In this document: piece after piece, positions 37,200-46,529 of the stretch
Layout: each line of letters starts with the position of its first letter
Numbering within the stretch: position 1 is the stretch's first letter
NCBI GenBank assembly: GCA_022641775.1
Contig: JALCDS010000001.1
Location: 62,001-126,000, forward strand
Direction of reading: 5' to 3'
Length of the DNA stretch: 64,000 nucleotides
Source: Clostridiaceae bacterium
Lineage (GTDB): Bacteria; Cyanobacteriota; Vampirovibrionia; Gastranaerophilales; Gastranaerophilaceae
The notes under the pieces: generated by a model
The model's database searches: none
The model's input: the letters and a program-made list of their open reading frames with translations, nothing else
What the model was told of the DNA's origin: nothing
Translations under genes and position numbers: made by a program

Positions 37200-40127
37200 T
37201 TAGATTGAATAAAGGTATGTCAGGTTGACGTTATCAATATTTACGTAATCCTTATATATCGGCGGAATTTCTACTGTATAATTTTCGGATTTTGTGTCAG
37301 GCTTAATTTTATAAGTGTCTTGGAGTTCTTTATCAACTTCAATTTTGTATCTACCGGGGTTTAATCCGGAAAAAGTAAATGTACCGTCTTCATTGATATT
37401 TGTGTAATTTACTTCATGCCCTGTTGTATCAATTACGCTGACGATTAAATCTTCAACTTTTAGAGGGTTATTAAATTCATCTTTAACCGTAACAGAGCCA
37501 TTTATATTCCCGACTGTACTGACAAATCCAAAAGAAATTTTACTCTTTTTATCTGCTTCAATTTTTATATATCTTGATGGTTTTGTTGTATTACAACAAG
37601 AAATAAGGGTTGGCAGTTCATCTTCAAAAACTTTTATATTATAAATTCCTTTATCTTCAGTTTTTATTTTTGTTTTTCCGTTTTTTTGAGTAAAAATCGG
37701 TTCTGTCTCATTGTTGATTTTAAATGGAACATTTTCGATAAACGGTTCAGTTTTGTCCCATTTACCATTTTGATTTACATCTAAATATGCCATAACTTCA
37801 ATAAACCCTTTGTTATTGTTCCCAACGCCTATAGCTTGCAGTCCTTTTGAACCTATCCCATACAATTCGGCAAAATCTATTGTAATTGAATGGCGGAGGC
37901 TTCCTGGGATGTACATATTATCTACCATATAAAAAGGTATTTGGTTGAATCTGTAATTTAAACTTACCGTACTGCCCGATTTTAAACGTTTTGTAATTCC
38001 AAATCCATAGTCATTACCCCTATTTGTTCCTGTATAATGAAAACCTAAAAAGGTGTGGAATGTTAAACTTTTTATTTGAGGAGTTGTGTATTGAAAATTT
38101 ATTGAATTATAGTTATTTTTGACGGTGTCAGAAGAAATTTTTACAACATTATGTCCGAGCGCAAAATAGCCAAAGCGTTTGCCTATGGGGAATCTCACTT
38201 CTGAATAAATGTCAGAATAATCTGATTTATAACTGGCATAACCGTCTGAATTATATTTGTTTGAATAGTTGTTTCCGCGAAGACCTCCATCAAAATCAAA
38301 GCATTTTATATGTTTTGCAAGATTGAAGTCATAAGAGGTCGATGAGATTGTACCTATTCCATTACCACCGTTTTTGGTGTTTATTCTAAAGTTTGTTATC
38401 GGAAGTTTTGGGAAGCTTGTACGGATATTGATATTGTATTCATTAAAATCCATCAATCCACCCTCATAATATTTTGAGAAATTGGATTTGTATTTTGAAT
38501 ATCCGCCGTTTATAAATATATTTTTAAAAGATTTATTTCCTTCGAGACTTATGCCGACCTTGTCAGACATAAATCCTGTTCCTCCCGAATACCCTGCCAG
38601 ATAAAAAGCCGGAGAGATTCCAAAAAGACTTAACTTTATTTCATCATCTTTATTGAGTTTGAAAGTGTTATCAATTTGTGCCAAAAATCCAAGACCGTCT
38701 TTTGAAATTCCATCAGTTGATTTTGAAAAACTCGTTCCGTATGTCAATTTGGAAGTCAATCTCGGATTCTTATTATATGTAAGTGCCCCCATAAAAGTTT
38801 CGCCTGTCAATGCGTTCTGGTTTTGAATTGTCGTGTAATTCAGATAACGTTTGTTCCCGAGAATGCTTTCTCTCCAGCCGTTTTGAATATCAGATTTTAT
38901 TGAAGTATCAGCTATCAAAAAGTTTTCTAAAATCAATTTGTCAGAAACTTTTTTATAAGTTTTTATACCTGTGAGTAATTTTTGAGTGTTGGTTTTGTAT
39001 ATGTAACCGTTGCTTGCCCAAAGTCTGTTTTGTAATCCGTTTATTCCCAAGATAAAATCTCTGTTTGGCGATGGAATTTCAGATGTGTTATAAAAATTTT
39101 TTTTTAAAAATTTTTGTTTTGTACCATCTTGTTTGATTTCATTTATTGTGATGTTATTGACAAATTTGTTGTAGTTTATATTTTTTAAGTTGAAATATCC
39201 TCCGTAAGTGCTTATTATCTCTTTAAAATCGTTGTTTAAGCAGATTTCAACAATACTGTTTTTATCAACTTTGCCTTCAATTGCTTTAAAATCATTTTCA
39301 TTTTTATTTGTATGTGATTTTATTTGAATTCCTATAATATCAGAGGATAAATTGTTGTGCGCAAATTCCCATGGCTCAGTTTTGCCTAAAACATAGTCAT
39401 AATTTTTAAACTTATTTTTATATTTAGGGCTAATGCCTGAAAAATTAAAAATGTTTGACGTATAACTATTTGTTCCAAAATCGAGGGAATATTCTCCTGA
39501 CTTTAATCTTCCGTTCAACAAAAGTTGTAAATTGTTATTAAAACTTGCAAATTTGCTTGTATTTTCTTTATAAATTTGTGAATATGAATCAGAATACATA
39601 TTCTCTTGTAATGAAACAGTATCAAGACTAATAAATTTTTTATTTTGGGGTAAAGAAATATTATCGGGATGTGCTTTAGCTTGATTTACAAACTTATGTT
39701 CCAAAAACGGATTTCCGGAAATTTCAGATTTTGTTTCAATAGGAGTTGTTGTTGTAACATAAACGGTCAAATCTTTGTTATTAGCGGTAATGTTTTTGCC
39801 TGTAAGTTTATTAAAAGTTTCTGTTGGAATGAAAAATTCATTTTGAGCCCCTGTTAAACAATTTTTTATAAAAAAAGTTTCATTACTTTGTTTTATTGTG
39901 GAATTTAAAAATGTCAGAGTTTTTTGTGCATGATTTTCTTTAAACGGAATTTTGAAATATGTTAAAAGAAACTTGCATGGCAGATAAATTTTGTTTTTAT
40001 TAATAACAATTTCAATGTCACTTTCTTCTTCGTTATTAATAGAAAATGTCGTTATTATATTTTCTGTAGCATATGTTTTACCGGCAAAACAGAAGAAAAT
40101 AAGAGCAAAAATTATAAATTTTTTCAT
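37200..40127 (-). CDS. Chaperone-usher pathway usher-like outer membrane protein
   Basis: Signal peptide; plug-like block VDKNSIVEICLNNDFKEIISTYGGYFNLKNINYNKFVNNITINEIKQDGTKQKFLKKNFY; many beta strands; C-terminal SdrD/CarbopepD-like VTVKDEFNNPLKVEDLIVSVIDTTG..FTFSGLNPGRYKIEV; gene context with chaperone and subunits. Confidence 0.75.
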   Translation of the reverse strand: MKKFIIFALIFFCFAGKTYATENIITTFSINNEEESDIEIVINKNKIYLPCKFLLTYFKIPFKENHAQKTLTFLNSTIKQSNETFFIKNCLTGAQNEFFIPTETFNKLTGKNITANNKDLTVYVTTTTPIETKSEISGNPFLEHKFVNQAKAHPDNISLPQNKKFISLDTVSLQENMYSDSYSQIYKENTSKFASFNNNLQLLLNGRLKSGEYSLDFGTNSYTSNIFNFSGISPKYKNKFKNYDYVLGKTEPWEFAHNNLSSDIIGIQIKSHTNKNENDFKAIEGKVDKNSIVEICLNNDFKEIISTYGGYFNLKNINYNKFVNNITINEIKQDGTKQKFLKKNFYNTSEIPSPNRDFILGINGLQNRLWASNGYIYKTNTQKLLTGIKTYKKVSDKLILENFLIADTSIKSDIQNGWRESILGNKRYLNYTTIQNQNALTGETFMGALTYNKNPRLTSKLTYGTSFSKSTDGISKDGLGFLAQIDNTFKLNKDDEIKLSLFGISPAFYLAGYSGGTGFMSDKVGISLEGNKSFKNIFINGGYSKYKSNFSKYYEGGLMDFNEYNINIRTSFPKLPITNFRINTKNGGNGIGTISSTSYDFNLAKHIKCFDFDGGLRGNNYSNKYNSDGYASYKSDYSDIYSEVRFPIGKRFGYFALGHNVVKISSDTVKNNYNSINFQYTTPQIKSLTFHTFLGFHYTGTNRGNDYGFGITKRLKSGSTVSLNYRFNQIPFYMVDNMYIPGSLRHSITIDFAELYGIGSKGLQAIGVGNNNKGFIEVMAYLDVNQNGKWDKTEPFIENVPFKINNETEPIFTQKNGKTKIKTEDKGIYNIKVFEDELPTLISCCNTTKPSRYIKIEADKKSKISFGFVSTVGNINGSVTVKDEFNNPLKVEDLIVSVIDTTGHEVNYTNINEDGTFTFSGLNPGRYKIEVDKELQDTYKIKPDTKSENYTVEIPPIYKDYVNIDNVNLTYLYSI

Positions 40128-40747
40128 GGAATATTATCCAGATAAACTTCTACTTTGTAATCTCCGATTTCGTCACTATAATTTGTTGTGTCATAAGTTC
40201 CAGACTTTGCAGATGTTGTAAGAGCAAGATTTATATTACTTGTGCCGGTATTTAGGTTTGCATTAATATATCCGTTGGATGTCGAATAGCTCAAAGTTCC
40301 ACTGTTATCTACGGTTACTGTTCCTGTATAAGCAACAGCATTAGGGTTATTTGCAACAGTCGAGGTAACAGTTTCACAGTTGTCTATAGCGTTTACTGTC
40401 GGCGTGTATGTTGTATTTGCCAAAACAACGGATAAAGGGATACTTGTTGCAGAGGTTACATCATTTGCATAGATTGCGTTATCAAGGTTTGAGGTTGAAT
40501 CTGTGACTAAAGCTTTTAATTGAACGTTACTCAATGTGGCATTTGATACAATATTAAAATTGATATTTAACGGAGTTGTCATATTTCCGGTTTCTGTATC
40601 TATTGAAGATGTCATATTACCTGTAACATTTATGGTAACGGAATTTGAAACATCAAATATAAAGGTATGATTTGATGTTGTATCAGCATATGTTGGGCTT
40701 ATGAAAAATGTTAACAGTATAAAAATTGTTATATAAAAATATTTCAT
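40124..40747 (-). CDS. Pilin/fimbrial subunit-like secreted protein (C)
   Basis: Signal peptide; TSSIDTETGNMTTPLNINFNIVSNA; NNPNAVAYTGTVT; C-term DEIGDYKVEVYL; 4-bp overlap with usher. Confidence 0.68.
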   Translation of the reverse strand: MKYFYITIFILLTFFISPTYADTTSNHTFIFDVSNSVTINVTGNMTSSIDTETGNMTTPLNINFNIVSNATLSNVQLKALVTDSTSNLDNAIYANDVTSATSIPLSVVLANTTYTPTVNAIDNCETVTSTVANNPNAVAYTGTVTVDNSGTLSYSTSNGYINANLNTGTSNINLALTTSAKSGTYDTTNYSDEIGDYKVEVYLDNIP

Positions 40748-40756
40748 TATTACCTT

Positions 40757-41359
40757 TTAATTGAACGAAAGTGTTACTGTAGCTTTATAATCTCCGGCTT
40801 CATCCATTGATGAAAATGTGTTCGTAAGTGGAATTGCTGCAGGTACAACCAATGAAGTATTAGTTGCTCCTGCACGGTTCAGTGTTAACAGCCAGTTTTT
40901 GTTTGTTGTATTATATGTTGCTGTTAATCCCGTTGTGGTTGTAGGATTATTTACTTGATAAGCTATTGCATTTGGGTTATTTAGGGCAGTGGGAGAACCC
41001 GAAGTTATATTATTTACGGAGGCAGTATTGGGTAAAACCGTATTATTCGTGAGAACAATATACCGTGTTGTCCCTATTGCAAATATTGCATTTGTTGTCC
41101 CGCCTGAAGTTGTATTTGTTGCTGACATAGTAAGGGTGTATGTTTGAGGTGAATTAGTCAGGATAGTAAAGCTCGGGCTTAGGGCGCTAGAAAGTAATCC
41201 TGTGTCAGTGTCAATGGTAGCCGTAAGATTTCTGCCGCTACCACTGACAGATTCTACCGCAGGATTTGAGCTTGTTAAATAGTAAGCACTAGTTTGTTCT
41301 GCTTTTGCATTTGGTAAAAGCATTAAAAGATATATAAGTATAAATATATATTTTTTCAT
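40757..41359 (-). CDS. Pilin/fimbrial subunit-like secreted protein (B)
   Basis: Signal peptide; TATIDTDTGLLSSALSPSFTILTNS; NNPNAIAYQVNNPT; C-term DEAGDYKATVTLSFN. Confidence 0.7.
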   Translation of the reverse strand: MKKYIFILIYLLMLLPNAKAEQTSAYYLTSSNPAVESVSGSGRNLTATIDTDTGLLSSALSPSFTILTNSPQTYTLTMSATNTTSGGTTNAIFAIGTTRYIVLTNNTVLPNTASVNNITSGSPTALNNPNAIAYQVNNPTTTTGLTATYNTTNKNWLLTLNRAGATNTSLVVPAAIPLTNTFSSMDEAGDYKATVTLSFN

Positions 41360-41371
41360 TTAAGACTCTTT

Positions 41372-41992
41372 TTATGTAAATGATAGAGTGATAGTTGCTT
41401 GGTATGAACCGGCTTCATCATCCCCTGAATATGTTCCTGATTTTGCGGCACCGGTTGGAATTGTGTAAGTTTGAGCCAAATTACCTTTGTTCGTAAGTGC
41501 AATATTCCATAATGAATTTGTTGAATTCCAAGTGTATGTTATAACACCGGTTGAATTTGTAGGATTTGTAATTTGGTAGGTAATTACATTAGGGTTACTT
41601 GTAACAACAGGAGATGCTGATTGAGCGTTTGTAACTGAGGCTGCTGTCGGGAGTATGGTTGAATTTGTAAGTGTTATATAATTTGTTGTTCCGTTTCCCG
41701 AAAACGCATTGACGTTACCTGTTGTTGTGTTTGCAGTGGCTTGAAGAGTCATTGCTTGTGAGGCTGCAGTATTTGTGATAATTAAAAAGCTTGGACTTAG
41801 TGCTGTGACTAAATTGCCGCTATCATCTATGGTTGAACTTATTGTGCCACCATTTGTTTGGACGGCCTTCGTTGTGCCCAAAGTTGCGGTTACTATTTGT
41901 GATGCTGTTGTGGCAGCTTTTGACGGTTGCATTGTTCCGATTGACATTATAGCCACCAATGAAAGTGCTGTGATTACTAAATTTTTGTTCAT
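41372..41992 (-). CDS. Pilin/fimbrial subunit-like secreted protein (A, probable major)
   Basis: Signal peptide; mature TTASQIVTATLGTTK; SSTIDDSGNLVTALSPSFLIITNT; SNPNVITYQITNPT; C-term DEAGSYQATITLSFT. Confidence 0.7.
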   Translation of the reverse strand: MNKNLVITALSLVAIMSIGTMQPSKAATTASQIVTATLGTTKAVQTNGGTISSTIDDSGNLVTALSPSFLIITNTAASQAMTLQATANTTTGNVNAFSGNGTTNYITLTNSTILPTAASVTNAQSASPVVTSNPNVITYQITNPTNSTGVITYTWNSTNSLWNIALTNKGNLAQTYTIPTGAAKSGTYSGDDEAGSYQATITLSFT

Positions 41993-42009
41993 TTTTCCTC
42001 CTTTTTATT

Positions 42010-42858
42010 TTATATTTTATTTTTACCAAGTTCTGATGGTTTAAATTTAACTTCTTTTTTCAGAATTTTTTCTCTGTTATTTTCATCTTTATATGTCAAG
42101 ACGAATTTGACTTTATATTCAGAATTATCATCAAGTAGAATTTCTTTATCTAAAATTATCGGTTGAATTTGTTCCAAGTAACTCCCGCCATATACGGCAT
42201 TTCCGTTCACCTGAAATTGTTTGAGAAGTTTGTTATTTTGTGTTAAATATCCGATACCGTTATAGCGAATTTTGCTGTTTCCGCCTGAAGATAATTTGTA
42301 ATCACATTCGTAAGTTCCGTTATTGTTTTTAATTTGTAGTGTGTCAAATGAAGCTTTTTTTACGTAATTACCTTTATCCAAAAATATCGGAACTCCGACT
42401 CTGGTTTTGATGGCAATGCTTCCGCCAATTGTTCCGTTTGCACGTTTTAGAACAATTTCTCTTGTATGGGTATCTTCCAAAAATAACATTACTTTTGATT
42501 CTCCGGAGGGTAGCGTTTTTAAATTAGTAATTGTAAATCTTATTTTTTGGCTTTCTCCGTTTGCACAAGTAAATTCTGTCGGGTAAAATTTTATTTTTCC
42601 CATAAGTGAATTTAATTGACCCTTGTCTTCCAGTTCTACAAATCTTCCTTTTGTGTCATATTTGAAAAATACAGGGTATATTTTGAACCTGACGGTTTCA
42701 TCTTTGCCTCCGGTGACAGTGAAAGCCCCTGTTATATAGTCTTTTTTTGTGGTGTTTCCATTGAGTTCTATATAACTTGGGGAAACTTTTATTGCCGCAT
42801 TTGCAGAATTTATACATGACAAAAATATTATTAAAATATACAGAACAAATTTTTTCAT
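42010..42858 (-). CDS. PapD-like periplasmic pilus chaperone
   Basis: AIKVSPSYIELNGNTTKKDYITGAFTVTGGKDETVRFKIYPVFF; IKFYPTEFTCANGESQKIRFTITN; IAIKTRVGVPIFL; two Ig-like domains. Confidence 0.75.
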   Translation of the reverse strand: MKKFVLYILIIFLSCINSANAAIKVSPSYIELNGNTTKKDYITGAFTVTGGKDETVRFKIYPVFFKYDTKGRFVELEDKGQLNSLMGKIKFYPTEFTCANGESQKIRFTITNLKTLPSGESKVMLFLEDTHTREIVLKRANGTIGGSIAIKTRVGVPIFLDKGNYVKKASFDTLQIKNNNGTYECDYKLSSGGNSKIRYNGIGYLTQNNKLLKQFQVNGNAVYGGSYLEQIQPIILDKEILLDDNSEYKVKFVLTYKDENNREKILKKEVKFKPSELGKNKI

Positions 42859-43766
42859 TAATCCTCCGTTTTTAAGCTGTATTGAAACAAATTAGATTCA
42901 CTGCCAACTGGTAAAAGTTCATTTTCAGGCCCTTTTATCATGTAACTCATTGTTAAAAATTTTTTATCTAAAGTGTTTGAATTATCGTTAAAAGTGGCTT
43001 TTCCTGATGCTATCAGGTATGTATTATTGTCCATTTTGGTATATGAAGAAGAATTGTTGAGGGTTATAGATGCGTCAGCATATAATGGTTTTATATAATA
43101 TGTAACTTTTGATGCCGGATTGATATTTGTTTTTTGTAAGTATAATTTCCAATTTTTATTTGATTTTATTGAAACTGTAAGTGGAGTTGAAATATTTTGT
43201 GTAACTCCTTTTTTGAGAATTTTTTCCTTATCAAGTTCTAAACGCGTTGGATTTTCTGAAAATTCAATAGAAGAAATTTCTTCTTTTTGAAATCTTAAAT
43301 TGTAAACCTCTAAATCCATTTTGTGACCTTTGTCAATCAGAACAAAACATATTTCAGTTGAGTAATAGCCCGGTCTATCGTTTTCAAATGTTGTTGTATT
43401 TAAACTCAGATTGAAGTTGTTAACTCCTCCTATGTCGTTACTGTTTATTTTTGCGACTTTAATGCCCGAATTAAACAAAATTATTGGTGTTCCGTTAGCT
43501 TTTGTGATTTCTAACCTGTTTATCGGAAGTGAATATGCAAAATTATTTTGATTTATAATTTCCGGACTCAAGATATAAACTTCCATTCTCCAATTGCTAT
43601 CAGCATCAATTGCGAGATTTATCGATTGAGAAATTTTGTTTGAAAATCCGGTAGGTGTTCCAATCGGGGTAATAGTCAATTGTGTTGCAAAACTCTGCCC
43701 GATTGCTAAAAAATAAATAATTAGAATATAAATAAATTTTTTTAATTTCATTTTTAAAATCCTCAA
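42858..43766 (-). CDS. Secreted two-domain fimbrial (tip/adhesin-like) protein
   Basis: Signal peptide region; two repeats of beta-sandwich-like pattern (QSINLAIDADSNWRMEVYI / PLTVSIKSNKNWKLYLQK); first gene of the pilus operon. Confidence 0.55.
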   Translation of the reverse strand: MRILKMKLKKFIYILIIYFLAIGQSFATQLTITPIGTPTGFSNKISQSINLAIDADSNWRMEVYILSPEIINQNNFAYSLPINRLEITKANGTPIILFNSGIKVAKINSNDIGGVNNFNLSLNTTTFENDRPGYYSTEICFVLIDKGHKMDLEVYNLRFQKEEISSIEFSENPTRLELDKEKILKKGVTQNISTPLTVSIKSNKNWKLYLQKTNINPASKVTYYIKPLYADASITLNNSSSYTKMDNNTYLIASGKATFNDNSNTLDKKFLTMSYMIKGPENELLPVGSESNLFQYSLKTED

Positions 43767-43889: not shown

Positions 43890-44711
43890 ATGTTTAAAAA
43901 ATTTTTAACTATAATATGTATGTTCTTTGCGTTAACAGAATTTTCATTTGCATTGGATACAACGGCTTCACAAACGGTTTCTGCAACATTAACAAGGAGT
44001 GGTACAAATACCGGTGGCGGTACAGGAACAAATGTTGGCGGTATAATTGCCGGTGGTGTAATAGGCGGAACAGCGGCTGGTGGCGCTACAGCACTTGCTT
44101 TTGCTCCATTATTACTTGTCGGACTTGTTCCTAATGAAACTGTTTCTGCTGCAGCTCCACTAAATCTTATTTGTGAAAAAAAATGGTATTTACTCATTGC
44201 AATTCGAGAACATGGAGTAAATTTAAAAGAAATTGAACGTTGTACTTTTGAAAATAAATTTTTTGTAGCGCAAAATGATACAGATATATTGAATGGAACT
44301 TATGATGTTGATGAAGTTAAATTGCCTGAAAAATTCAAGAATTCCGGAAAAATAAAAATAAAAATTACAATTGCATCACAATCTTATGGCGAAATAAAAG
44401 GAATTCCTGATTTAAGTTTGGGAATTTATAAAGATATTTCCCGTAATGATTTGAATAAAAAATTTGAAACACAACAATTTTTACACCATTATTTGATGAA
44501 AAAATATGAAATACCGTTACAAATTACCTCAAGTCATTATTCAGACGGAATTCAACAATTGGAAGGCGAAATAAAACTTTCGGATATTGAATACATAAAC
44601 CAGCCGTTACAAGTAGTTGTGCGATATACAGCTGGTGGATTTAGAACCAATTTGAGGAAACAAATTCCAAAAGTTTTAACTTATGCATATTTAATTGAAT
44701 TTGATAAATAA
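43890..44711 (+). CDS. Secreted protein with subunit-like N-terminus, divergent from the pilus operon
   Basis: Signal peptide MFKKFLTIICMFFALTEFSFA then LDTTASQTVSATLT, matching TTASQIVTATLG of subunit A; Gly-rich hinge; start set at ATG 43890. Confidence 0.65.
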   Translation: MFKKFLTIICMFFALTEFSFALDTTASQTVSATLTRSGTNTGGGTGTNVGGIIAGGVIGGTAAGGATALAFAPLLLVGLVPNETVSAAAPLNLICEKKWYLLIAIREHGVNLKEIERCTFENKFFVAQNDTDILNGTYDVDEVKLPEKFKNSGKIKIKITIASQSYGEIKGIPDLSLGIYKDISRNDLNKKFETQQFLHHYLMKKYEIPLQITSSHYSDGIQQLEGEIKLSDIEYINQPLQVVVRYTAGGFRTNLRKQIPKVLTYAYLIEFDK

Positions 44712-44816: not shown

Positions 44817-46529
44817 ATGTACGATAACGGGGATATCAAATATAATTTTGGGAAAGACTATGCAAAGGAATTTGCTGAAAATTCTAAAAAAAGTCTTGAT
44901 GAAACTAAACAGAAATTAAACTCTTTAGGAATTACTGTTCCGATGGTTTCTCAACAAAAAGATGATAAGAAAAAAGATGAACCTGTTAAAGGTATGGAAG
45001 TTGAACATATTGAACAAAGTGATGTTAAAAATACAGATAAAAAAGATGAAACTAAAGATAACGAAAACGGTTATGAAGATACCGGAATAAAAACAAAAAA
45101 TGATATATTTAATACTCAAAGTTATTTGAATGATGACTATGCGGCATTAATGGCACAATTAAATGACACAAAAGGGTTGAGCAAAGAAGAAATACAAATG
45201 CAAACTCAATTGGGCGATGTTGTTGATTCCATGGAAGATATGGGAAACGAAAATAATAAAAGTGTCAATTTTATGCAAACAGATTACAGAAAAGGCTTTC
45301 ATGGTAGCGGTGAATTATTCACATCTTATGATAAAGACAATTCAACATCTGTAGCTGCAGTAAGCGGGGACTTTGCAGGTAGTTATAGAAATAAAAACGG
45401 TAAGTTCACTGCAATTTTTGGTGGAGCATTTGAAAAATCAAAGACGAAAGAAGTTTTTCCGGAAGAAGCCTCTTCACATGAAATTGGTACTGATAAGGAA
45501 GGTTCCTCAGAAGGAACTGATACATCAACTTCTCAAGGTAATGCCGGTAGCGATACTATTCTTCAGGATATAACAGAAACATCTCATGAATATTCATACA
45601 ATGCCTCTGTTCAAGCAAAATATGATGCAAAAAATTATACATTTACAGGTGGGGCAACAGCAAGCAGTTTCCCTGGAGAAAACGGTCATTCTAAATTTTA
45701 TCAATTTAATGCGGGTGCTATTCATAAAAAATCAGGCATGGCAGTTACTTTGAAACGTTATATGTATATTACAAAAGATACAGACGGTTCGACTAATGTA
45801 AATAATAAAACAAATTTAAAATTAACTTTGGTTGAAAATAAAGAAATGCAAAAAACTACCGGCAATATTACTAATGACAAAGTTGAGGATGAAGCAGAGA
45901 ATGTAGATGAAAATACACCGGCTCAAGAAAATACAAATGTTGCAGGTCAAGAAATAACTTCTATAAATAATAAAAAAGATGATGGTACAGGTTTTGGTCT
46001 TGATTTGGAAACAGAATCAAATTCAATTGATGATCAGTATGGCGCTTTAGCAGGTTATACTTTTGCACCGTTAAAAAACAAAAAATTTAATCCAAATAAA
46101 CAAGAAAAAATATTTATTACTCCATTGGTTGGCGCATATGACGTTCATCCGTCATCAGATGAAGCTTTGAAACTTACTGCAGGTGCTATTGCAAGTTATG
46201 AATTGAAAAAGAAAAACGGCTTGGAAGTAGATGCTTCTATGTTTGCAAAATATAATCAAGTTATTCAAACCGGAAGTATGCCAAGACATACATTTACGAC
46301 AATGGGTAATATTGATGTAAAAATGCCGAAAGGTAAAGTCTTTTTAAACGCTCAAACAGGTTATGTTGCAACAAGAGATATAAATTTATTCTTTGCAAAC
46401 GCAAGTGGTGCATATAAAGCAAGTAAACATGTAATGTATGCGGCAGGTGTAGGTTATACAAAATCTTCAAGTGTAGGCGAAAGCAATGAAGGTTTTAATG
46501 TTAACGCAAAAGTTTCATTTGATTTTTAA
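44817..46529 (+). CDS. Hypothetical protein with acidic/coiled N-terminus and outer-membrane-barrel-like C-terminus
   Basis: Alternating amphipathic strands in C-terminal half ending VNAKVSFDF; SD GGAGAA upstream; no obvious signal peptide. Confidence 0.6.
   Translation: MYDNGDIKYNFGKDYAKEFAENSKKSLDETKQKLNSLGITVPMVSQQKDDKKKDEPVKGMEVEHIEQSDVKNTDKKDETKDNENGYEDTGIKTKNDIFNTQSYLNDDYAALMAQLNDTKGLSKEEIQMQTQLGDVVDSMEDMGNENNKSVNFMQTDYRKGFHGSGELFTSYDKDNSTSVAAVSGDFAGSYRNKNGKFTAIFGGAFEKSKTKEVFPEEASSHEIGTDKEGSSEGTDTSTSQGNAGSDTILQDITETSHEYSYNASVQAKYDAKNYTFTGGATASSFPGENGHSKFYQFNAGAIHKKSGMAVTLKRYMYITKDTDGSTNVNNKTNLKLTLVENKEMQKTTGNITNDKVEDEAENVDENTPAQENTNVAGQEITSINNKKDDGTGFGLDLETESNSIDDQYGALAGYTFAPLKNKKFNPNKQEKIFITPLVGAYDVHPSSDEALKLTAGAIASYELKKKNGLEVDASMFAKYNQVIQTGSMPRHTFTTMGNIDVKMPKGKVFLNAQTGYVATRDINLFFANASGAYKASKHVMYAAGVGYTKSSSVGESNEGFNVNAKVSFDF

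Follow-up and report, generated by a model that had tools for sequence, protein, structure and literature searches.

We analyzed a 64,000-nucleotide stretch of a genome from the Gastranaerophilales, gut relatives of the cyanobacteria (contig JALCDS010000001.1; hereafter, the window) and found that an operon at positions 37200-43766 very probably encodes an archaic-like chaperone-usher (CU) pilus of a deep branch, which was confined, as far as we could see, to Gastranaerophilales and near relatives. CU machines build adhesive hairs on the cell surface. The operon consists of six co-directional minus-strand genes, in order those for the tip-like protein, the chaperone, three putative pilins, and the usher; their open reading frames (ORFs) lie at 42858-43766 (302 amino acids [aa], TTG start), 42010-42858 (282 aa), 41372-41992 (206 aa), 40757-41359 (200 aa), 40124-40747 (207 aa), and 37200-40127 (975 aa). 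For the tip gene, an ATG at 43751, preceding MKLKKFIYILI, is a likelier start than the TTG at 43766. An earlier note on this DNA had described a tightly packed operon with overlapping or nearly overlapping genes, and we recovered all six ORFs with intergenic distances of -1, 17, 12, 9, and -4 bases, together with the motifs that it had quoted (the usher plug block, the chaperone block FYPTEFTCANGESQKIRF, and DEAGDYKATVTLSF, with which pilin 2 ends). A divergent gene at 43890-44711 on the plus strand, which we add to the earlier observation, belongs to the locus as well. The genome of 1.7 Mb has a single usher and a single chaperone of such type.

By homology and by predicted fold, we identify the 975-aa protein as the usher, with the following parts:

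37200-40127, minus strand: outer-membrane usher, 975 aa (AlphaFold2 model, Foldseek, and hhalign)
39753-40064, minus strand: predicted N-terminal periplasmic domain, residues ~22-125 (AlphaFold2 secondary structure; in 10 of 21 relatives it weakly resembles Cu_amine_oxidN1)
37833-39632, minus strand: predicted beta-barrel, residues ~166-765, ~24-26 strands (AlphaFold2 secondary structure, strands counted by hand)
39084-39293, minus strand: plug domain, residues 279-348, inserted behind roughly six strands of the barrel (alignment; matches the cyanobacterial usher plug)
37209-37805, minus strand: predicted C-terminal domains CTD1 and CTD2, residues ~775-973, SdrD_B/CarboxypepD_reg-like (Pfam, AlphaFold2)

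An AlphaFold2 model built from 25 sequences predicted an N-terminal domain (NTD), a barrel of 24-26 strands that is interrupted, after roughly six of them, by a small beta domain, and two C-terminal beta domains, as expected from the usher plan of a 24-strand barrel with an inserted plug, an NTD, CTD1, and CTD2. The first 14 PDB matches of this model in Foldseek were all FimD or PapC, with E values down to 3.6e-24 at ~10% identity. The usher profile also matched that of 18 cyanobacterial ushers, picked with the Pfam Usher model (PF00577-positive), at 99.2% in hhalign (E 1.2e-19), colinear over 708 columns, and that of four E. coli ushers at 95%. Similarity was therefore found at the level of both profile and structure, and the earlier reading of this protein as an usher holds.

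The second line of evidence came from the chaperone:

42010-42858, minus strand: periplasmic chaperone, PapD-like, archaic type, 282 aa (AlphaFold2, Foldseek, hhalign; conserved P93 and R/K122)
42388-42420, minus strand: predicted G1 donor strand region SIAIKTRVGVP, residues 147-157 (aligned with cyanobacterial GIKILTKMGLP; alternating hydrophobics conserved)

Its AlphaFold2 model (pLDDT 86.5) had two Ig-like domains in the chaperone fold, and a Foldseek search returned CsuC, CfaA, FimC, and PapD at E values of 1e-9 to 1e-6 (CsuC 5.6e-9), with CU chaperones making up most of the best 50 matches. The chaperone profile matched cyanobacterial archaic-type chaperones, taken from genes beside SCPU or usher genes, at 96.8% (E 2e-10), whereas the match to E. 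coli classical and alternative chaperones was weak (14%, E 9e-4). Cross-controls with pilins or ushers gave nothing comparable, and no shuffled profile came near, although column shuffling is a lenient control, since neither signal peptides nor strand order survive it. The earlier assignment of a PapD-like chaperone thus agrees with both the structural and the profile matches. In the profile alignment with the cyanobacterial archaic chaperones, the G1-strand block SIAIKTRVGVPIFLDKG was paired with GIKILTKMGLPIFLQPN. In CsuC, Pro59 is the superfamily-invariant proline, and Arg89 of strand F1 marks archaic and alternative chaperones (PMC4654587). The domain-1 proline was present here as P93 in all 22 aligned chaperones, within the same motif in the profile alignment; the basic residue of the GESR/GEYR motif was R in 21 of the 22 and K122 in the window, with the profile alignment two residues off. 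CsuC has two further anchors in domain 2, Tyr196 and Arg174. Y248 was invariant in the aligned chaperones but lies where the profile alignment is unreliable, and no Arg was matched to Arg174. The chaperone and tip profiles also resembled each other from the signal peptide on (79.8%, E 1.5e-5), a similarity that we did not use as evidence.

Conservation of the locus provided the third line. Across 146 genomes of the order, we found usher relatives in 31, spread over 18 of 40 genera, and chaperone relatives in 28; both occurred together in 26 genomes (hypergeometric P 1e-21). In most loci that we read, the order tip-chaperone-pilin-pilin-usher was kept at ~20-41% protein identity to the window, which argues that the locus is not a chance arrangement; a few early-branching loci (G011, G003, G022, G019, G009, and G002) had rearranged gene orders. 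The nearest named relatives for the locus were metagenome-assembled genomes (MAGs) of Candidatus Gastranaerophilales/Melainabacteria, in line with the earlier description of the genome as Gastranaerophilales-type. One MAG titled 'uncultured Acinetobacter sp.' (L059) had an usher operon of the Gastranaerophilales type that branched from deep within the clade, and its bin is probably misnamed. Split or stop-bearing usher and accessory fragments (G106:C12, G132:C81, and G025:C7) suggest decay of the locus in some genomes.

Several observations weigh against a CU pilus. All of the analysis is of sequence data, and the usher model was of middling quality (mean pLDDT 73.8, pTM 0.54, TM 0.40-0.48). 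The Pfam Usher model (PF00577), which scored in E. coli as a control, matched neither the window protein, nor anything else in its genome, nor any of 21 aligned relatives; PapD_N (PF00345) did not match the window chaperone and was weak in 5 of 21 relatives, with a best E value of 0.0064. The top two structural matches of the chaperone were Enterococcus (Gram-positive) WxLIP proteins at 7.8e-10 rather than CU chaperones. Similarity of the pilins to SCPU was limited to 37 columns, and no accessory gene was found beside the operon in the clade with 1013-aa ushers. Other searches were of no help: single-sequence phmmer against PDB and Pfam/NCBIfam searches of the window proteins gave nothing useful, hmmsearch of the family profiles against PDB sequences returned no usher or chaperone, and SdrD_B/CarboxypepD_reg at the usher C terminus were the only Pfam/NCBIfam domains to score among the usher, chaperone, and pilins.

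We considered whether the locus could instead encode a WxL/WxLIP-like surface adhesion complex, in which the barrel would be an unrelated outer-membrane protein with SdrD-like repeats. The Enterococcus matches would fit this explanation, as would Pfam WxLIP matches in one or two relatives and SdrD_B as the best Pfam match of the usher. However, usher homology was colinear across the whole protein, the chaperone profile matched archaic chaperones, and usher and chaperone were linked in operons throughout the order. This explanation is largely refuted and, in our judgment, highly improbable.

The remaining operon genes were assigned to a tip-like protein and pilins from sequence pattern and gene position:

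42858-43751, minus strand: putative exported protein of two parts, tip-like, 297 aa (opens the operon; 18 aligned relatives have a homologue in synteny)
41372-41992, minus strand: putative pilin 1, 206 aa, probable main subunit (family A3, 40 members; N-terminal profile match to SCPU)
41876-41914, minus strand: mature N terminus of pilin 1, ATTASQIVTATLG, predicted donor strand (lies directly behind the signal peptide and is conserved in relatives)
40757-41359, minus strand: putative pilin 2, 200 aa (resembles pilin 1, phmmer 2e-36, 41% identity)
40124-40747, minus strand: putative pilin 3, 207 aa (resembles pilin 2, phmmer 1e-11; overlaps the usher start by 4 bases)

Right after the signal peptide, the pilins have a short alternating segment (SQIVTATL, TLQATL, TLTTTVP), and their C-terminal strand reads D-x-A-G-x-Y-x-A-x-x-T-L. 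Against SCPU, the pilin N-terminal region scored 76.9% in hhalign (E 2e-5), which none of 60 shuffled profiles reached. Pfam SCPU (PF05229) had no match in the window genome or among 40 pilins. The tip-like protein had no Pfam match; many of its syntenic homologues end in a pilin-like strand, A/E-G-x-Y-x-x-x-V-x-Y, and the family often has A-G-N-Y-x-x-x-V-x-Y-x-L at its C terminus. Such an ending agrees with a two-domain tip that has no donor strand. The pilins probably have an incomplete Ig fold, and the first gene product probably acts as the tip.

Even with a genuine usher and chaperone, the product could be something other than a long pilus, such as a short tip fiber, an amorphous surface coat, or a spore-coat-like layer. 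The pilins are diverse (~25-40% identity within one operon), and SCPU-type proteins originally received their name as spore-coat proteins, both of which would favor such a product. However, archaic pili, Csu among them, are likewise composed of two or three pilins with donor-strand-like N termini and a tip-like protein (PMC4654587), and we consider a product of this other kind unlikely. We infer that the operon forms a pilus. The Ig-fold chaperone would bind exported pilins with its G1 strand and hand them to the usher, where donor-strand exchange would join them; the fiber would then be extruded through the barrel of the usher, tip protein first.

The locus is best filed, from its sequence, as an archaic-like (sigma-like) CU system in a deep, undescribed branch. 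The earlier note had judged archaic sigma-type systems to be closest in style, and the chaperone comparison and the SCPU match of the pilin N terminus point the same way. The system is archaic-like by profile yet falls below Pfam family thresholds, and it is best called a new deep branch. With archaic pili (Csu of Acinetobacter, CsuA/B-CsuE, and cyanobacterial SCPU/usher loci), it shares matching chaperone and usher profiles, several putative pilins plus a tip, and the invariant proline of the chaperone; a donor-strand-type pilin N terminus and the basic GESR/GEYR residue may be shared as well. It differs in that it lies below Pfam detection, the tip gene is first rather than last, and the pilins are not detected as SCPU and mostly lack cysteines; furthermore, the usher is longer, with SdrD/TTR-like C-terminal domains, and there is an extra donor-strand membrane protein. 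Classical pili (Fim and Pap) have the same usher fold and NTD-barrel-plug-CTD1-CTD2 plan, but usher identity to them is ~10% and the chaperone profile hardly matches E. coli chaperones. A literature search found no report of a CU system in gut melainabacteria.

Beyond the order, three proteins (L076:7841-10588, plus strand; L078:818-3493, plus strand; and L077:12-1190, plus strand) from Rhodoferax, Bacteriovoracaceae, and an alphaproteobacterium share the usher C-terminal domains (hhalign 97-99%). L076 and L078 have N-terminal and plug-like stretches by eye, the Pfam Usher model matched none of the three, and the genome of the Rhodoferax yielded no SCPU match; they are possibly another unrecognized usher-like group. 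The class to which the order belongs includes a different family in which ORFs of 888-1009 aa (G194, G204, G210, G277, G280, G343, and G347) matched the usher C-terminal domains only and are possibly further diverged ushers.

Two features go further than the earlier note and would surprise a specialist, namely the clade of plugless ushers and the membrane protein with a donor strand. Among 43 distinct aligned ushers, the plug region was 69-71 residues long in 30 and 4-9 residues in 11, with an unrelated stretch of 39 residues in the other two; the window usher retains its plug. In a quick tree with long branches, built without the plug columns, all 11 plugless ushers fell in one clade (SH-aLRT 100), which covers several genera and two families. 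The two short-plug ushers fell in a separate lineage, so at least two changes are indicated. Plugless ushers, such as that at L069 9965-12721, had intact flanking barrel strands and open frames of 902-919 aa, and those whose operons we read sat in complete operons. No second usher was found in their genomes, where the two matches per genome were halves of one frame. From their sequences, the plugless ushers represent a natural deletion of the plug, fixed in one clade. Removal of the plug from PapC produces very large open channels (review PMC10418385), so natural plugless ushers would need another gate or tolerate opening. The same domain is absent from the engineered PapC and from these relatives, but here the loss is natural, clade-fixed, and found in complete operons. 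We found no papers on plugless ushers in a literature search.

The divergent gene encodes an accessory protein with the following features:

43890-44711, plus strand: divergent accessory protein, 273 aa (family in relatives; co-occurs with the usher)
43959-43994, plus strand: mature N terminus TTASQTVSATLT, near-copy of the pilin 1 donor strand (of 1736 ORFs, only pilin 1 itself matched better)
44034-44129, plus strand: hydrophobic segment, probably transmembrane (Kyte-Doolittle 1.97 over 19 residues; 1.6-1.9 in ten relatives)

Its layout is a signal peptide, a pilin-like donor strand, a Gly-rich linker, the hydrophobic segment, and a conserved C-terminal domain. The N-terminal peptide is DTTASQTVSATL; after the signal peptide comes DTTASQTVSATLTRSGTNTGGGTGTN, then the hydrophobic stretch and the C-terminal domain. 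When the 1736 ORFs were compared with TTASQIVTATLG of pilin 1, TTASQTVSATLT scored 38, behind pilin 1 alone; pilins from relatives came next at 29-37, and the highest-scoring unrelated protein reached 28. Of the 146 genomes, 25 had a member of the accessory family, and the usher was present in 21 of these 25 (P 3e-14). In relatives, the N terminus is mostly S-F-x-I-x-I-x-x-x-P, which also alternates yet is no pilin copy, followed by the linker, SDGAVTAITLGSxFGGLG, and positive charges; a small separate pilin-like gene precedes the accessory gene in those relatives and is missing in the window. Several members of the 1013-aa-usher clade have a divergent pilin gene of ~200 aa in the place of the accessory gene.

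We propose that the accessory protein, predicted to be exported and tethered to the membrane, caps or anchors the base of the pilus. It would offer a pilin-type donor strand and probably cap and tether the last pilin, or else sense it. A sensor role is nearly as likely as an anchor role. As a regulator of pilin supply, for which we see a substantial if lesser chance, it would bind unassembled pilin through its periplasmic strand and signal through a domain on the far side of the membrane. Positive residues after the hydrophobic segment in many relatives suggest a cytoplasmic C-terminal domain, and divergent transcription is common among regulators; the C-terminal domain, however, showed no similarity to signaling or DNA-binding families. 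For the anchor role, the FimI/PapH terminators offer a functional analogy, as proteins that would end and anchor a rod; FimI anchors the rod at FimD (PMC12122975). Those terminators are pilins, whereas the accessory protein has only the donor strand, followed by a linker, a membrane segment, and an unrelated domain. In this lineage, the machine may even have been rebuilt at both ends, with the plugless clade gating its pore by other means and a tethered donor-strand protein capping and anchoring the base across the envelope in place of a pilin-type terminator, an idea that we hold tentatively and think rather doubtful.

Two further observations concern the surroundings of these genes. Promoter-like and terminator-like sites were no more frequent than in shuffles. 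After the accessory gene, at 44817-46529 on the plus strand, lies a gene for a 570-aa protein without an evident signal peptide, which had no family match and was not seen in the loci of relatives.

Overall, our analyses place a probable CU pilus in gut melainabacteria and indicate that Pfam/NCBIfam annotation misses such systems. The natural plugless ushers make it testable whether the plug serves assembly or only the sealing of the pore, and the accessory protein suggests that a pilus may be ended or anchored by a strand donated from a membrane protein.

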